The notes under the pieces are model-generated. The model saw only the letters and a program-made list of their open reading frames with translations. It ran no database searches and was not told where the DNA came from. A DNA stretch of 38,266 nt from Saprospiraceae bacterium (GTDB taxonomy: Bacteria; Bacteroidota; Bacteroidia; Chitinophagales; Saprospiraceae), in NCBI GenBank assembly GCA_022841505.1, contig JALHRK010000019.1, positions 1 through 38,266 on the forward strand, read 5' to 3'. Shown here piece after piece: positions 5,622 to 26,828 of this stretch. Both the position numbers and the translations under genes were made by a program. Each line of letters begins with the position of its first letter. Within the stretch, counting starts at the first letter, position 1.

Positions 5622-6611
5622 ATGATCAACTGGTTAGATATCATCAAGTTCGCCAACCATGGCAATCCCAAACCCAGCCGGCGAATATTAAAAACAGATG
5701 CCGAATGGGAAGCGCAACTCACGCCGGAGCAATACCGGATTGCCCGGCAGCACCAGACAGAAAGGGCTTATACCGGCGCATTCTGTCAGTTGTTTGAGCC
5801 GGCACTTTATGGCTGCGTTTGTTGTGAAAACTGGCTGTTCGATAGCCGGGAAAAATTTGAATCGGGCACGGGCTGGCCAAGTTTTACGCAACCAGTGACC
5901 GAAAACGCCATGCAATATCGCAAAGACAGCAGCCACGGCATGAACCGGATTGAAGTGTTGTGCAACGTTTGCGATGCACACCTCGGCCATATTTTTCCCG
6001 ATGGCCCCATGCCAAGCGGGCTGCGGTATTGCATCAATTCAGCAGCGCTGCGAAAAGTGAGTACAACCGCTTTGCAAACGGCAACTTTTGGTGGCGGCTG
6101 CTTCTGGTGTACGGAGGCTATTTTTAAAGCACTTGACGGGGTGGAAAGCGTGACGTCGGGATATAGTGGTGGTGATGTCATCAACCCTGATTATGAACAG
6201 GTTAAATCGGGGGCTACCGGCCACGCGGAAGTGATTCAGGTGATCTTTGACAGCCATATAATTCCTTATGAGGACCTGGTACGCATTCATTTGCATACCC
6301 ACAACCCAACGACGCTGAATCGCCAGGGAGCGGACGTGGGGACCCAATACCGCTCCGTTATTTTTTACCACAGTGCCGAACAAAAGGCCATGGCAGAAAA
6401 TGTCCTCACGGAAGCAACCGCAGATTTCGACGATCCGATTGTGACTGCGTTAGCACCCTTCGTGCAGTTTTTCAAAGCGGAAGCGCACCATCAGAATTTT
6501 TATGTCCGAAATCCTGATTTGCCGTATTGCGAGGTGGTTATTACGCCTAAATTGCAGCAGTTGCGCGTGAAATATGCGGACAAACTGAAGCGCCTCCCGG
6601 AGTTGGATTAA
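5622..6611 (+). CDS. msrAB: bifunctional peptide-methionine sulfoxide reductase, MsrB (N-term) - MsrA (C-term)
   Basis: ORF 5520-6611; ATG at 5622 (MINWLDIIKFANHG). MsrB motifs CVCCENWLF, SGTGWPSF, GLRYCINSAAL; MsrA motif ATFGGGCFWCTEAIF. Confidence 0.92.
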   Translation: MINWLDIIKFANHGNPKPSRRILKTDAEWEAQLTPEQYRIARQHQTERAYTGAFCQLFEPALYGCVCCENWLFDSREKFESGTGWPSFTQPVTENAMQYRKDSSHGMNRIEVLCNVCDAHLGHIFPDGPMPSGLRYCINSAALRKVSTTALQTATFGGGCFWCTEAIFKALDGVESVTSGYSGGDVINPDYEQVKSGATGHAEVIQVIFDSHIIPYEDLVRIHLHTHNPTTLNRQGADVGTQYRSVIFYHSAEQKAMAENVLTEATADFDDPIVTALAPFVQFFKAEAHHQNFYVRNPDLPYCEVVITPKLQQLRVKYADKLKRLPELD

Positions 6612-23540: not shown

Positions 23541-24926
23541 ATGAAAAAGATAAAATTATTGGCATTCACCTTCATGGTACTGGCTTTAGGCTTGAGCAAC
23601 GTTGCATTGGGCCAGTATGATGACCTGTACTACGACCCGGACCGGGACGCAGGTACCTACAATACCGGCATTGACAAATCCCGGCCCACCGACAACGCAG
23701 TCGCTTCCCGTTACGATGACGAAGAAGAAGACTACGACAACAACACGGCAAGCTACGACCAGGGTTACGATGACGACGAGTATGCGTACTACGACGATTA
23801 TGACTATTACTACACTGCTCGTGTCCGCCGGTTTCACCGCCCCTACTACGGCTTTAGCTATTTTGACCCCGTTTATGCCGACCTTTATTATTACGATCCT
23901 TTCATCAACCCTGGCGTAACCGTCCTCATTTACGACGGCTACAATTCCTGGAACAGTTGGAACAACTGGCGCCGGTGGAACCGCTGGAACAGTTGGAGCT
24001 CCTTCAACCGCGGCTGGGGCTGGGGCAACGGCTGGAACCGCTGGAACGACCCCTGGTACGGTGGCGGCTGGAATCGCTGGAATGATCCCTGGTACGGCAA
24101 CAATTACTACGTCAACAACTACTACGGTTACGGTGGCGGCTGGAATAACTGGGGCGGCAACGGTTACTATTGCCCGCCATCCTGGGGCAACGGCTACAAC
24201 TACAACACCATCAATACCAACAACAATACGCATTACGGCCCGCGGACGACCGGTTCAAGCCTTGTGCCGCGTAAAAATGATCGCTCCCCCGGTATTCAAA
24301 AACCGGTAACGGGGCCATTGGTTCCCAAAGAAGAGCGTCAGACGACCCAACCTGGTTCAGGCTCAGGACTGACGTCCCAACCTGGCAATGCACGCGATAC
24401 CCGCCGCCCGGCTTCTGAAGACGGCAAAACGCCTGTAGGTGTTGACGGCGCAGGTACCCGGGAAACGCCGTCGCGCACGGTTCGGCCTGACAATCCGGTC
24501 AATGACCGCCCGAAATTTGAGGAGCCGCGTACGCCGCGCCGGGAGACAACGACGCCAAGCCGCGAAGAAAATAGCCCTTCCCGCCCGGCAATAGAAAGCC
24601 CGCGGACGCCGCGCCGGGAAGAAGCAAGTCCTTCGCGTCCACGCCGGGAAGAAGCTGCTCCTTCCACGCCGACGCGCAGAGATGATACGCCTGCAAGGGA
24701 ATACCGCGAGCGCAGCGAAACGCCGAGGAGTTCTTCTCCATCGCGCAGCTACGACAACAGCAGCCGTCAATCTTCGCCATCGCCATCGCGCAGTTATGAT
24801 AACGGCAGCAGCCGCCAATCATCTCCATCGCGCAGCAACGACAGTGGCGGTAGCCGGCAGTCTACCCCGTCGCGCAGCAACGACAGTGGCGGCAAGAGCC
24901 GTTCAGGTGGCAGGAACGGAGGTTAA
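23541..24926 (+). CDS. secreted three-segment low-complexity protein (D/Y-rich, W/N/G-rich, R/S/P-rich)
   Basis: 461 aa; signal peptide MKKIKLLAFTFMVLALGLSNVALGQ; repeats NRWNDPWYG(G/N), PRTPRRE, SRSNDSGG. Confidence 0.85.
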   Translation: MKKIKLLAFTFMVLALGLSNVALGQYDDLYYDPDRDAGTYNTGIDKSRPTDNAVASRYDDEEEDYDNNTASYDQGYDDDEYAYYDDYDYYYTARVRRFHRPYYGFSYFDPVYADLYYYDPFINPGVTVLIYDGYNSWNSWNNWRRWNRWNSWSSFNRGWGWGNGWNRWNDPWYGGGWNRWNDPWYGNNYYVNNYYGYGGGWNNWGGNGYYCPPSWGNGYNYNTINTNNNTHYGPRTTGSSLVPRKNDRSPGIQKPVTGPLVPKEERQTTQPGSGSGLTSQPGNARDTRRPASEDGKTPVGVDGAGTRETPSRTVRPDNPVNDRPKFEEPRTPRRETTTPSREENSPSRPAIESPRTPRREEASPSRPRREEAAPSTPTRRDDTPAREYRERSETPRSSSPSRSYDNSSRQSSPSPSRSYDNGSSRQSSPSRSNDSGGSRQSTPSRSNDSGGKSRSGGRNGG

Positions 24927-24930
24927 TTGA

Positions 24931-25050
24931 TGTCTGTCTTTAGAGTCCGATAGCTGCGTTATGTTTCGTCCCAAAACCGGTCATTTACCTCAGTAAACTC
25001 CCGCTTTTGGGACGAAACATGCCTTGCTCTCGAACTCTAAAGAACAGACA
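24931..25050. repeat. structured intergenic element A (~120 bp)
   Basis: Terminal arms TGTCTGTCTTTAGAGT/ACTCTAAAGAACAGACA; 16-bp stem 24961-24976/25005-25020; TTTAC-CTCA-GTAAA apical hairpin. Aligns to 26612-26730. Confidence 0.9.
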
Positions 25051-25078
25051 CCGACTAAGTGGACAAACAAAATAGTGA

Positions 25079-25115
25079 AATAGAAAAGGCGGGTTATTCA
25101 CTCGCCTTTTCTATT
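25079..25115. other. 13-bp-stem hairpin AATAGAAAAGGCG...CGCCTTTTCTATT upstream of the FadL-like gene
   Basis: Perfect inverted repeat; no U-tract on the plus strand. Confidence 0.5.
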
Positions 25116-25134
25116 CAAAAAAAAACAAAATACC

Positions 25135-26607
25135 ATGCGAATTATCCTAAGCTTTGGTTTTCTCCTGATCTTTTCCTCCTTATCCTATAGCCAAACCGCG
25201 AGTGATGCTTTGCGTTTTTCCTACCACGACGGCAGCGGCATCAGTACCGCACGGAGCCTGGGCGTAGGGGGCGCGATGAGTGCGTTGGGCAGCGATTTTT
25301 CAGTGATCAGCACCAACCCGGCCGGTCTGGGCTGGTACCGGAGTTCCGAATTTGTGATTACCCCTTCGCTGACTGCGATCAGCACCGAATCACAATTACT
25401 GGAAAGCGACGATGCACGCATTAATAAGGAACGGCTGAGCAAACTGGGCCTGAGCAATTTGGGCTTCGTGGTGTCCTCCCGTCCGACCGCTTCGCAATGG
25501 ACGACCTTCAATTTTGGTATCGGTCTCAACCAATTGGCCAATTTTAACCAACGCTTTTATTACGATGGGCAGACGGAGGGATCAATCATCAACCGGTTCC
25601 AGGAATTGGCCAATGGCAGTGATGGATTGGATGATTTTGAATCGGGATTGGCTTATGACGCCGAGGCGCTTTACGACTTTGACGAGGACGGTTTTTACGA
25701 CTCTGATGTGGAGTTGCGCCCCAATGCGCTGATTTACAAAGAACAAACGGTGACGACCTCCGGCTCAATCAACGAACTTACTTTCGCTTTTGCCGGGAGC
25801 TACAGCGACAAATTATTGATGGGGGTAACCATCGGGGTGCCTTTCCTGAATTACAATATGGATAAGGTTTACAAGGAATCGGATCAGGGGGAAGAAGCCG
25901 ATGGCAATATTCCGTTTTTTGATGACCTGGAATTTACGGAAAGCCTGAATACGACTGGGATCGGCATCAACCTGAAAGCCGGATTGATCTACCGCCCCAT
26001 CCAGGCCGTTCGCCTCGGCCTTGCGGTTCACACGCCCACCGCTTATGGGTTGAACGATACTTATCGCAACACCATGTCCTATTTTTACACGGATAACGGA
26101 GGCAGTACAAGCGGAGATGCTGAATCGCCTGACGGCTTATTCGAGTATAAATTTCGCTCGCCCTGGCGAATCATTGGCGGTTTGGGCGTCATCATCGGAA
26201 AAGCTGGGTTTCTGAGTGGCGAAGTGGAATGGGCCGACTACACCGGCGCACATTTTCGCTATGACGGGTTTGAGGGCGCCGAACGCGATGTCAACAATGA
26301 CATTGTCAACCAGTTGCAAGCTGCGGCAAACATCCGCCTTGGTGGCGAACTCGCTTTTGAAATCTTTCGCCTGCGGGCGGGTTTTGGCTTACATCAGTCG
26401 CCCATTCAGGGAGACGATACGGTCAACGAAAGCATCAGCGCGGGATTTGGCATCCGGGAAAAATCGTTTTTCTTAGATTTGGGCTACCGGCATTACCTCA
26501 TTGAGGAAACGTATACGCCTTACCAGACTTCCGAAGCGCCTATGCAGTTTGTCAACAATGACGTGACTAATGGGCGCTTCCTGCTATCGGTCGGCTTCCG
26601 TTTTTGA
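25135..26607 (+). CDS. outer membrane protein, OmpP1/FadL-like
   Basis: 490 aa; signal peptide MRIILSFGFLLIFSSLSYSQ; ARSLGVGGAMSALGSDFSVISTNPAGLG; terminal FLLSVGFRF. Confidence 0.82.
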   Translation: MRIILSFGFLLIFSSLSYSQTASDALRFSYHDGSGISTARSLGVGGAMSALGSDFSVISTNPAGLGWYRSSEFVITPSLTAISTESQLLESDDARINKERLSKLGLSNLGFVVSSRPTASQWTTFNFGIGLNQLANFNQRFYYDGQTEGSIINRFQELANGSDGLDDFESGLAYDAEALYDFDEDGFYDSDVELRPNALIYKEQTVTTSGSINELTFAFAGSYSDKLLMGVTIGVPFLNYNMDKVYKESDQGEEADGNIPFFDDLEFTESLNTTGIGINLKAGLIYRPIQAVRLGLAVHTPTAYGLNDTYRNTMSYFYTDNGGSTSGDAESPDGLFEYKFRSPWRIIGGLGVIIGKAGFLSGEVEWADYTGAHFRYDGFEGAERDVNNDIVNQLQAAANIRLGGELAFEIFRLRAGFGLHQSPIQGDDTVNESISAGFGIREKSFFLDLGYRHYLIEETYTPYQTSEAPMQFVNNDVTNGRFLLSVGFRF

Positions 26608-26611
26608 ATCG

Positions 26612-26730
26612 TGTCTGTTTTTATAGTCCGATAGCTGCGTTATGCGAAGGCCCAAAATTGGTCATTTACGCGAGTAAACTCCCACTTTTGGGCCTTCGCA
26701 TGCCTTGCTCTCGAACTCTAAAAACAGACA
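26612..26730. repeat. structured intergenic element B (~119 bp)
   Basis: Terminal arms TGTCTGTTTTTATAGT/ACTCTAAAAACAGACA; 16-bp stem 26642-26657/26686-26701; TTTAC-GCGA-GTAAA apical hairpin. Confidence 0.9.
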
Positions 26731-26737
26731 CTCCACT

Positions 26738-26772: not shown

Positions 26773-26828
26773 TATCTAATGTCTAACATCAATAATCTAA
26801 TATCTATAATCTAACATCTACAATCTAC
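26773..26828. repeat. degenerate tandem micro-repeat (ATCTAA/CATCTA type)
   Basis: atctaatgtctaacatcaataatctaatatctataatctaacatctacaatctacc, ending at the next ATG. Confidence 0.75.

Follow-up and report, generated by a model that had tools for sequence, protein, structure and literature searches.

Two hairpins in a Saprospiraceae genome are probably copies of an ERIC-like mobile element

Two hairpins, copies A and B, lie on either side of a FadL-like gene in a 38,266-nt stretch of a Saprospiraceae genome (the window). We conclude, with a probability of roughly 0.8, that both are resident copies of one mobile element, non-autonomous and of the ERIC/IRU type. ERIC sequences have served for strain typing since the 1990s, and non-autonomous mobile elements of this type had already been described in Enterobacteriaceae and Vibrionaceae. 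The new points are a range that crosses phyla, a 6-bp TANNTA duplication in Fulvivirga, near-fixed placement in sense at stop codons, and evidence for the exchange of inner hairpins as units.

Results

Two copies of one hairpin in the window

Copies A and B are direct repeats, 84% identical over 111 nt without a gap, and each is predicted to fold into a single long hairpin (A, -61.7 kcal/mol; B, -63.4 kcal/mol; z about -12.6, with 0 of 200 shuffled sequences folding as well). Alignment and fold thus confirm a preliminary description of the window, in which A and B appeared as copies of one structured element, here ~122 nt, with a common architecture. The right end of the element extends beyond the bounds first drawn for it, as CAGACAC-NCGACTAAATGGACAGACAC-TANNTA, and there includes a second arm that can pair with the left end. 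The parts of the two copies are as follows.

24930–25051, + strand: copy A, complete ERIC-like hairpin, beginning in sense 4 nt past the stop codon TAA (24924–24926) of the upstream gene
24924–24929, + strand: left-end target of A, TAATTG, the stop codon plus a TANNTA-like motif, so named by analogy with the Fulvivirga target duplication
24931–24954, + strand: A, outer arm, left, TGTCTGTCTTTAGAGTCCGATAGC
24955–24960, + strand: A, conserved box TGCGTT, 5' side of the lower internal loop
24961–24976, + strand: A, inner stem, left arm, subtype TTTCG
24980–25001, + strand: A, apical box GTCATTTAC-CTCA-GTAAACTCC, the ERIC-type centre
25005–25020, + strand: A, inner stem, right arm
25021–25026, + strand: A, conserved box GCCTTG
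25027–25050, + strand: A, outer arm, right, proximal part
25052–25070, + strand: A, right extension including the distal right arm CGACTAAGTGGACAAACAA; consensus CGACTAAATGGACAGACAC
26611–26731, + strand: copy B, complete ERIC-like hairpin, beginning in sense 3 nt past the stop codon TGA (26605–26607) of the FadL-like gene
26636–26641, + strand: B, conserved box TGCGTT
26642–26657, + strand: B, inner stem, left arm, subtype CGAAG
26661–26682, + strand: B, apical box GTCATTTAC-GCGA-GTAAACTCC
26686–26701, + strand: B, inner stem, right arm
26702–26707, + strand: B, conserved box GCCTTG

The inner stems (24961–24976/25005–25020 in A, 26642–26657/26686–26701 in B) differ at positions 4, 5, 6, 7 and 9, and every difference is matched on the opposite arm, as had been described. 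So is a sixth pair, CGG/CCG in A against TGG/CCA in B. The change of tetraloop, from CTCA in A to GCGA in B, was likewise found, with TGCGTT and GCCTTG common to both copies.

A 16-bp hairpin 3' of copy A (25079–25115) is kept in the congener and may be the terminator that originally separated the two genes. Copy B is separated from the next gene by a 14-nt tandem repeat (TATCTAATGTCTAACATCAATAATCTA..., 26773–26827), and similar ATCTAATATCT runs also follow at least one other copy (L085).

A high-copy family placed in sense behind stop codons

The 7.5-Mb genome holds ~200–225 copies. The 5' box TCCGATAGCTGCGTTATG occurs 114 + 111 times at up to three mismatches, compared with 2 + 0 times for a reversed control pattern, so its occurrence is not due to chance. 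With ~225 copies genome-wide, the flanking of the FadL-like gene, which the preliminary description had pointed out, is incidental.

We studied the anatomy of the copies in ~1.2 Mb extracted from the genome. The copies share rigid boxes (TCCGATAGCTGCGTT, GCCTTGCTCTCGAAC) that diverge by 1.1–1.5% per site in this sample, and their inner stem is hypervariable yet paired; RNAalifold predicted 36 pairs, 23 of them with changes on both sides. The family core is fixed as TGCGTT / GTCAYKTAC-NNNN-GTAMRCTCC / GCCTTG while the paired stems vary freely, and in this genome inner-stem and outer-stem variants are freely combined. The ends, TA-GTGTCTG ... CAGACAC, are 7-bp inverted repeats with TA at the termini, and the element measures 122 positions in the covariance model and 141 nt end to end in Fulvivirga. 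In some copies the apex is swapped for another hairpin (CATCCCG..CGGGACTCC), and in others a REP-like sequence is nested. One copy (L026/C63) has its centre inverted relative to its flanks, an arrangement that points to a putative exchange of arms. A second palindromic repeat (TTCGACTCCGCTCAG...) lies inside several copies (L053:451-596, L098:14741, L094:16712), sometimes in place of the middle.

By our own hexamer-based ORF caller, which makes positions approximate, 92 of 97 copies in this genome are intergenic. Nearly all of the intergenic ones (79 of 87) lie behind a gene of the same orientation, and for most of them its stop codon falls within -2 to +4 nt. Of 27 copies in G325, a Bacteroidales genome, 25 likewise lie at a stop codon in sense. 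The sense bias is not universal, as the Fulvivirga copies have no orientation bias. A TANNTA site readily overlaps TAA or TAG, which explains the position at stop codons and not the orientation.

The core corresponds to that of ERIC

The preliminary description assigned the hairpin to no named family; we correct this to an ERIC/IRU-like mobile element rather than an unnamed RNA. From the ERIC primers, we presumed the family core to be ERIC's and then tested this by alignment and by covariance model. Two models were used, one trained on Bacteroidota copies only (R1) and one built from 30 diverse members (R2). An E. coli ERIC copy 3' of psuT matched R2 over its full length (30.3 bits, E 1.7e-8), a score to be read with the fact that the R2 training set included an ERIC-like copy from a viral contig. 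R1 alone gave a weak match to the E. coli ERIC (13.1 bits, E 0.03) and 26.5 bits for the ERIC-like viral-contig copy. Relatives of one viral-contig member (L195) are present in 5403 of 5426 E. coli genomes.

The E. coli ERIC carries TGCGTT, GTCACTTAC-TTAT-GTAAGCTCC and GCCTT, all at corresponding places. Its centre, AGTCACTTAC-TTAT-GTAAGCTCC, aligns with that of the window copies, which are an A-for-G variant of the central motif GTCACTTAC-NNNN-GTAAGCTCC. Reviews describe ERIC as 127 bp long, bounded by terminal repeats of 7 bp with TA at the ends, and place it in Enterobacteriaceae and Vibrionaceae (PMC10969869, PMC2229807). Like ERIC, IRU or RU-1, imperfect palindromes of ~127 bp that form one long hairpin (here ~122), our elements have the GTCACTTAC-NNNN-GTAAGCTCC type of centre and the TGCGTT and GCCTT boxes in corresponding order, share the 7-bp terminal repeats with TA ends, and are intergenic and high in copy number. 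Unlike ERIC, they occur in Bacteroidota, Bacillota and many other Pseudomonadota, have GTAAACTCC where ERIC has GTAAGCTCC, carry different outer stems, show a 6-bp TANNTA duplication (clear in Fulvivirga, weak in this genome), and in this genome and G325 are placed almost invariably in sense at stop codons. We write "ERIC-like" and not ERIC in the strict sense because the mismatch is one of host range as described (PMC10969869), not of structure. The outer ends differ between phyla, which counts against our main reading.

A search of the openly accessible literature returned no report of ERIC outside Gammaproteobacteria. Rfam had no match for the window, nor for six members of the family at E up to 1. 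YPAL/RU-2, RUP, NEMIS/Correia and BOX are also small non-autonomous intergenic hairpin elements, some of them near gene ends, and we know of no core common to them and this family. An integron attC site was set aside, as no R-box match was seen by eye.

The core spans three bacterial phyla

The sole congener compared (G001) has 13 matches, and 35 other genomes of the family have none, against ~225 copies here. Across the order, R1 found members in 11 of 299 genomes from several families, with entirely different outer stems and the same core. A pattern scan of GTDB, which undercounts because it allowed 5 and not 6 free bases between TTTA and TAAA, returned six genomes with 7–148 copies each (Bacteroidota, Pseudomonadota and Bacillota, an assignment that is provisional for an 'Acetofilamentum' record), and the model confirmed all six. 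R2 found members in 101 of 249 sampled Pseudomonadota genomes and in 26 of 250 Bacillota genomes. E-values from R1 and R2 are rough, so that lone weak matches are untrustworthy; many genomes have several strong ones. The conserved core of the family thus spans three bacterial phyla.

Many copies and covariation, the support that the preliminary description had asked for, were both found. In the R2 alignment, 83.3% of cells are paired (55.5% when shuffled), covariation is 0.543 (0.148±0.011 shuffled, at most 0.121 slid), and 31 of 36 pairs have changes on both sides, although fitting the alignment to the structure inflates the pairing and covariation figures.

Tandem arrays of the element, with units of ~115–138 nt, occur in three unrelated genomes (L170:1024-1733, L209:1501-2027, L251:2880-3270), and IMG/VR contigs carry ERIC-like copies among phage tail- or baseplate-like genes (L188:1331-1440, L190:6007-6116).

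Empty sites, target duplication and the question of an enzyme

The congener is collinear around the window. Its site B is cleanly empty, and its site A holds a half-deleted remnant, with only a decayed left half. In Fulvivirga, 6-bp TANNTA direct repeats flank the 141-nt element and are identical at 20 of 34 copies, with 5.26 of 6 positions matching on average against 4.29 expected (z 9.6; 0 of 2000 permutations as high). For the middle NN the figures are 1.74 against 0.91 matches (0 of 5000). The same ends are visible in the Saprospiraceae genome, where the duplication signal is weak (z 2.3–2.9).

Inverted 7-bp ends (GTGTCTG/CAGACAC), TA termini and a 6-bp duplication are what an ordinary MITE would show, namely a DDE insertion sequence shortened by deletion, which moves by way of its terminal inverted repeats and carries the core as a passenger. 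However, the usual pattern is reversed here, with ends that differ between phyla around a conserved internal core, and none of the inspected Fulvivirga copies adjoins a transposase with such ends. We consider this origin quite unlikely. Stop codons at which one copy has succeeded another, and the G325 outer stems that no two copies share, both described below, are left unexplained by simple MITE transposition and weigh against our main reading. Other Fulvivirga elements with similar ends exist, and none of those inspected has a transposase, so no autonomous partner was found; nor was a mobilising enzyme.

REP, BIME and REPIN sequences are 20–40 nt units tied to RAYT transposases. They are likewise dispersed intergenic palindromes, and this genome has Y1_Tnp genes, which speaks for mobilisation by a RAYT (Y1 HUH) transposase. 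The link to RAYT was nonetheless not found for our element: a copy lies within 1.5 kb of only 1 of 18 Y1_Tnp loci, Y1_Tnp matches are absent from two carriers, one with 37 copies and one with 101, the Fulvivirga duplication is 6 bp, and the GTAG/CGTC tag was not seen. We rejected a REP/BIME-type origin as barely credible.

Inner hairpins differ by subtype and are probably exchanged as units

Among 95 copies in this genome, the stems are bimodal, with 65 having 0–1 mismatch in ten pairs and 27 having 4–6. Most stems with 4–6 mismatches belong to a single subtype, CTCG/CTTCG, which is present also in other species and is therefore probably the older one. The symmetric stems CGAAG/CTTCG, as in copy B, and CTCAG/CTGAG are two mirror corrections of it. 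In the paired class, 24 of 650 pairs (3.7%) mispair, about twice the per-site flank divergence of 1.1–1.5%, and so resident copies give no sign of upkeep. A test of which strand is functional, confounded by shared subtypes, gave no surplus of G-T over A-C among sense-strand mispairs.

At one orthologous site in G325 and a relative (G339), the outer stem is the same and the inner hairpin is entirely different, the G339 hairpin being that of another G325 site. Both arms were thus replaced together, because the two genomes differ in a whole inner hairpin that is known elsewhere in one of them. At two further orthologous sites, one and the same stop codon is occupied by a different full element in each relative, and right-half remnants of older elements lie downstream.

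We conclude that A and B differ by hairpin subtype and not by stepwise compensation in place, since the evidence points to exchange of whole inner hairpins. The preliminary description had seen in the two stems a selected fold whose drift was compensated pair by pair. The fold is real, present in many copies and strongly covarying across phyla; compensation in place is not supported, given discrete stem subtypes, resident mispairing at about twice the flank divergence, and arms swapped together at an orthologous site.

A selected 3'-UTR RNA element, a terminator-like or mRNA-stability hairpin whose stems compensate in place and whose copying is secondary, would account for the sense position at stop codons in two distant genomes and for the cross-phylum covariation. 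In G325, moreover, paired outer stems are unique to each copy and have an A-run before and a T-run after them, like intrinsic terminators. We nevertheless think this explanation unlikely. The mispairing rate is that expected without upkeep, G-T mispairs do not exceed A-C mispairs, sites in relatives are cleanly empty, and Fulvivirga copies are unoriented.

The same unique outer stems, together with site-specific pairing that extends beyond the element in Parabacteroides, could mean that the element inserts into existing hairpins such as terminators, the outer stem then being host target sequence. Yet the outer stem is constant in this genome and in Fulvivirga, the latter with a target duplication, and at the three orthologous sites compared, relatives lacking the element have no corresponding hairpin, which makes targeting of this kind improbable.

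Discussion

For a mobile element of the ERIC kind, we propose the following course. The constant core forms two internal loops and an apical stem, and the stems between them need only to pair. The element would move, probably in hairpin or cruciform form, through an enzyme supplied in trans that recognises the core, and would insert with a 6-bp duplication, as seen in Fulvivirga and weakly here, at AT-rich TANNTA-type sites, which often overlap stop codons. Sense copies right after a stop codon would place a hairpin at the mRNA 3' end. In Yersinia, an ERIC at a gene's 3' end is reported to lower transcript stability in an orientation-dependent manner (PMC10969869, PMC2229807), which suggests a similar effect here. 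New subtypes may arise in source copies, where one arm would be copied from the other or a whole inner hairpin exchanged, and then spread while resident copies decay without detectable upkeep. The common flanks and different, perfectly paired stems of A and B would follow because subtypes form in source copies before spreading. Our data fit a scheme in which arms are copied and modules exchanged in source copies before these spread; its molecular steps are putative.

More tentatively, and with some doubt on our part, ERIC may have branched off within a bacterial superfamily of mobile hairpins that is itself ancient. A putative, widely shared machinery would recognise the core loops of these hairpins, insert and serially replace copies at stop codons, and swap inner hairpins as modules.

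A core that covaries across three phyla provides a covariance model for finding ERIC-like elements anywhere and points to the nucleotides that matter. To our knowledge, no enzyme that moves ERIC has been identified; the question of ERIC mobilisation can now be tested by seeking a factor common to the carriers. The placement at stop codons, in sense only, is relevant to how mRNA 3' ends are shaped.

One Fulvivirga element (L283, minus strand, ~6159–6330) has similar ends and TSD-like flanks around a completely different interior, and is possibly a second non-autonomous family on the same ends.
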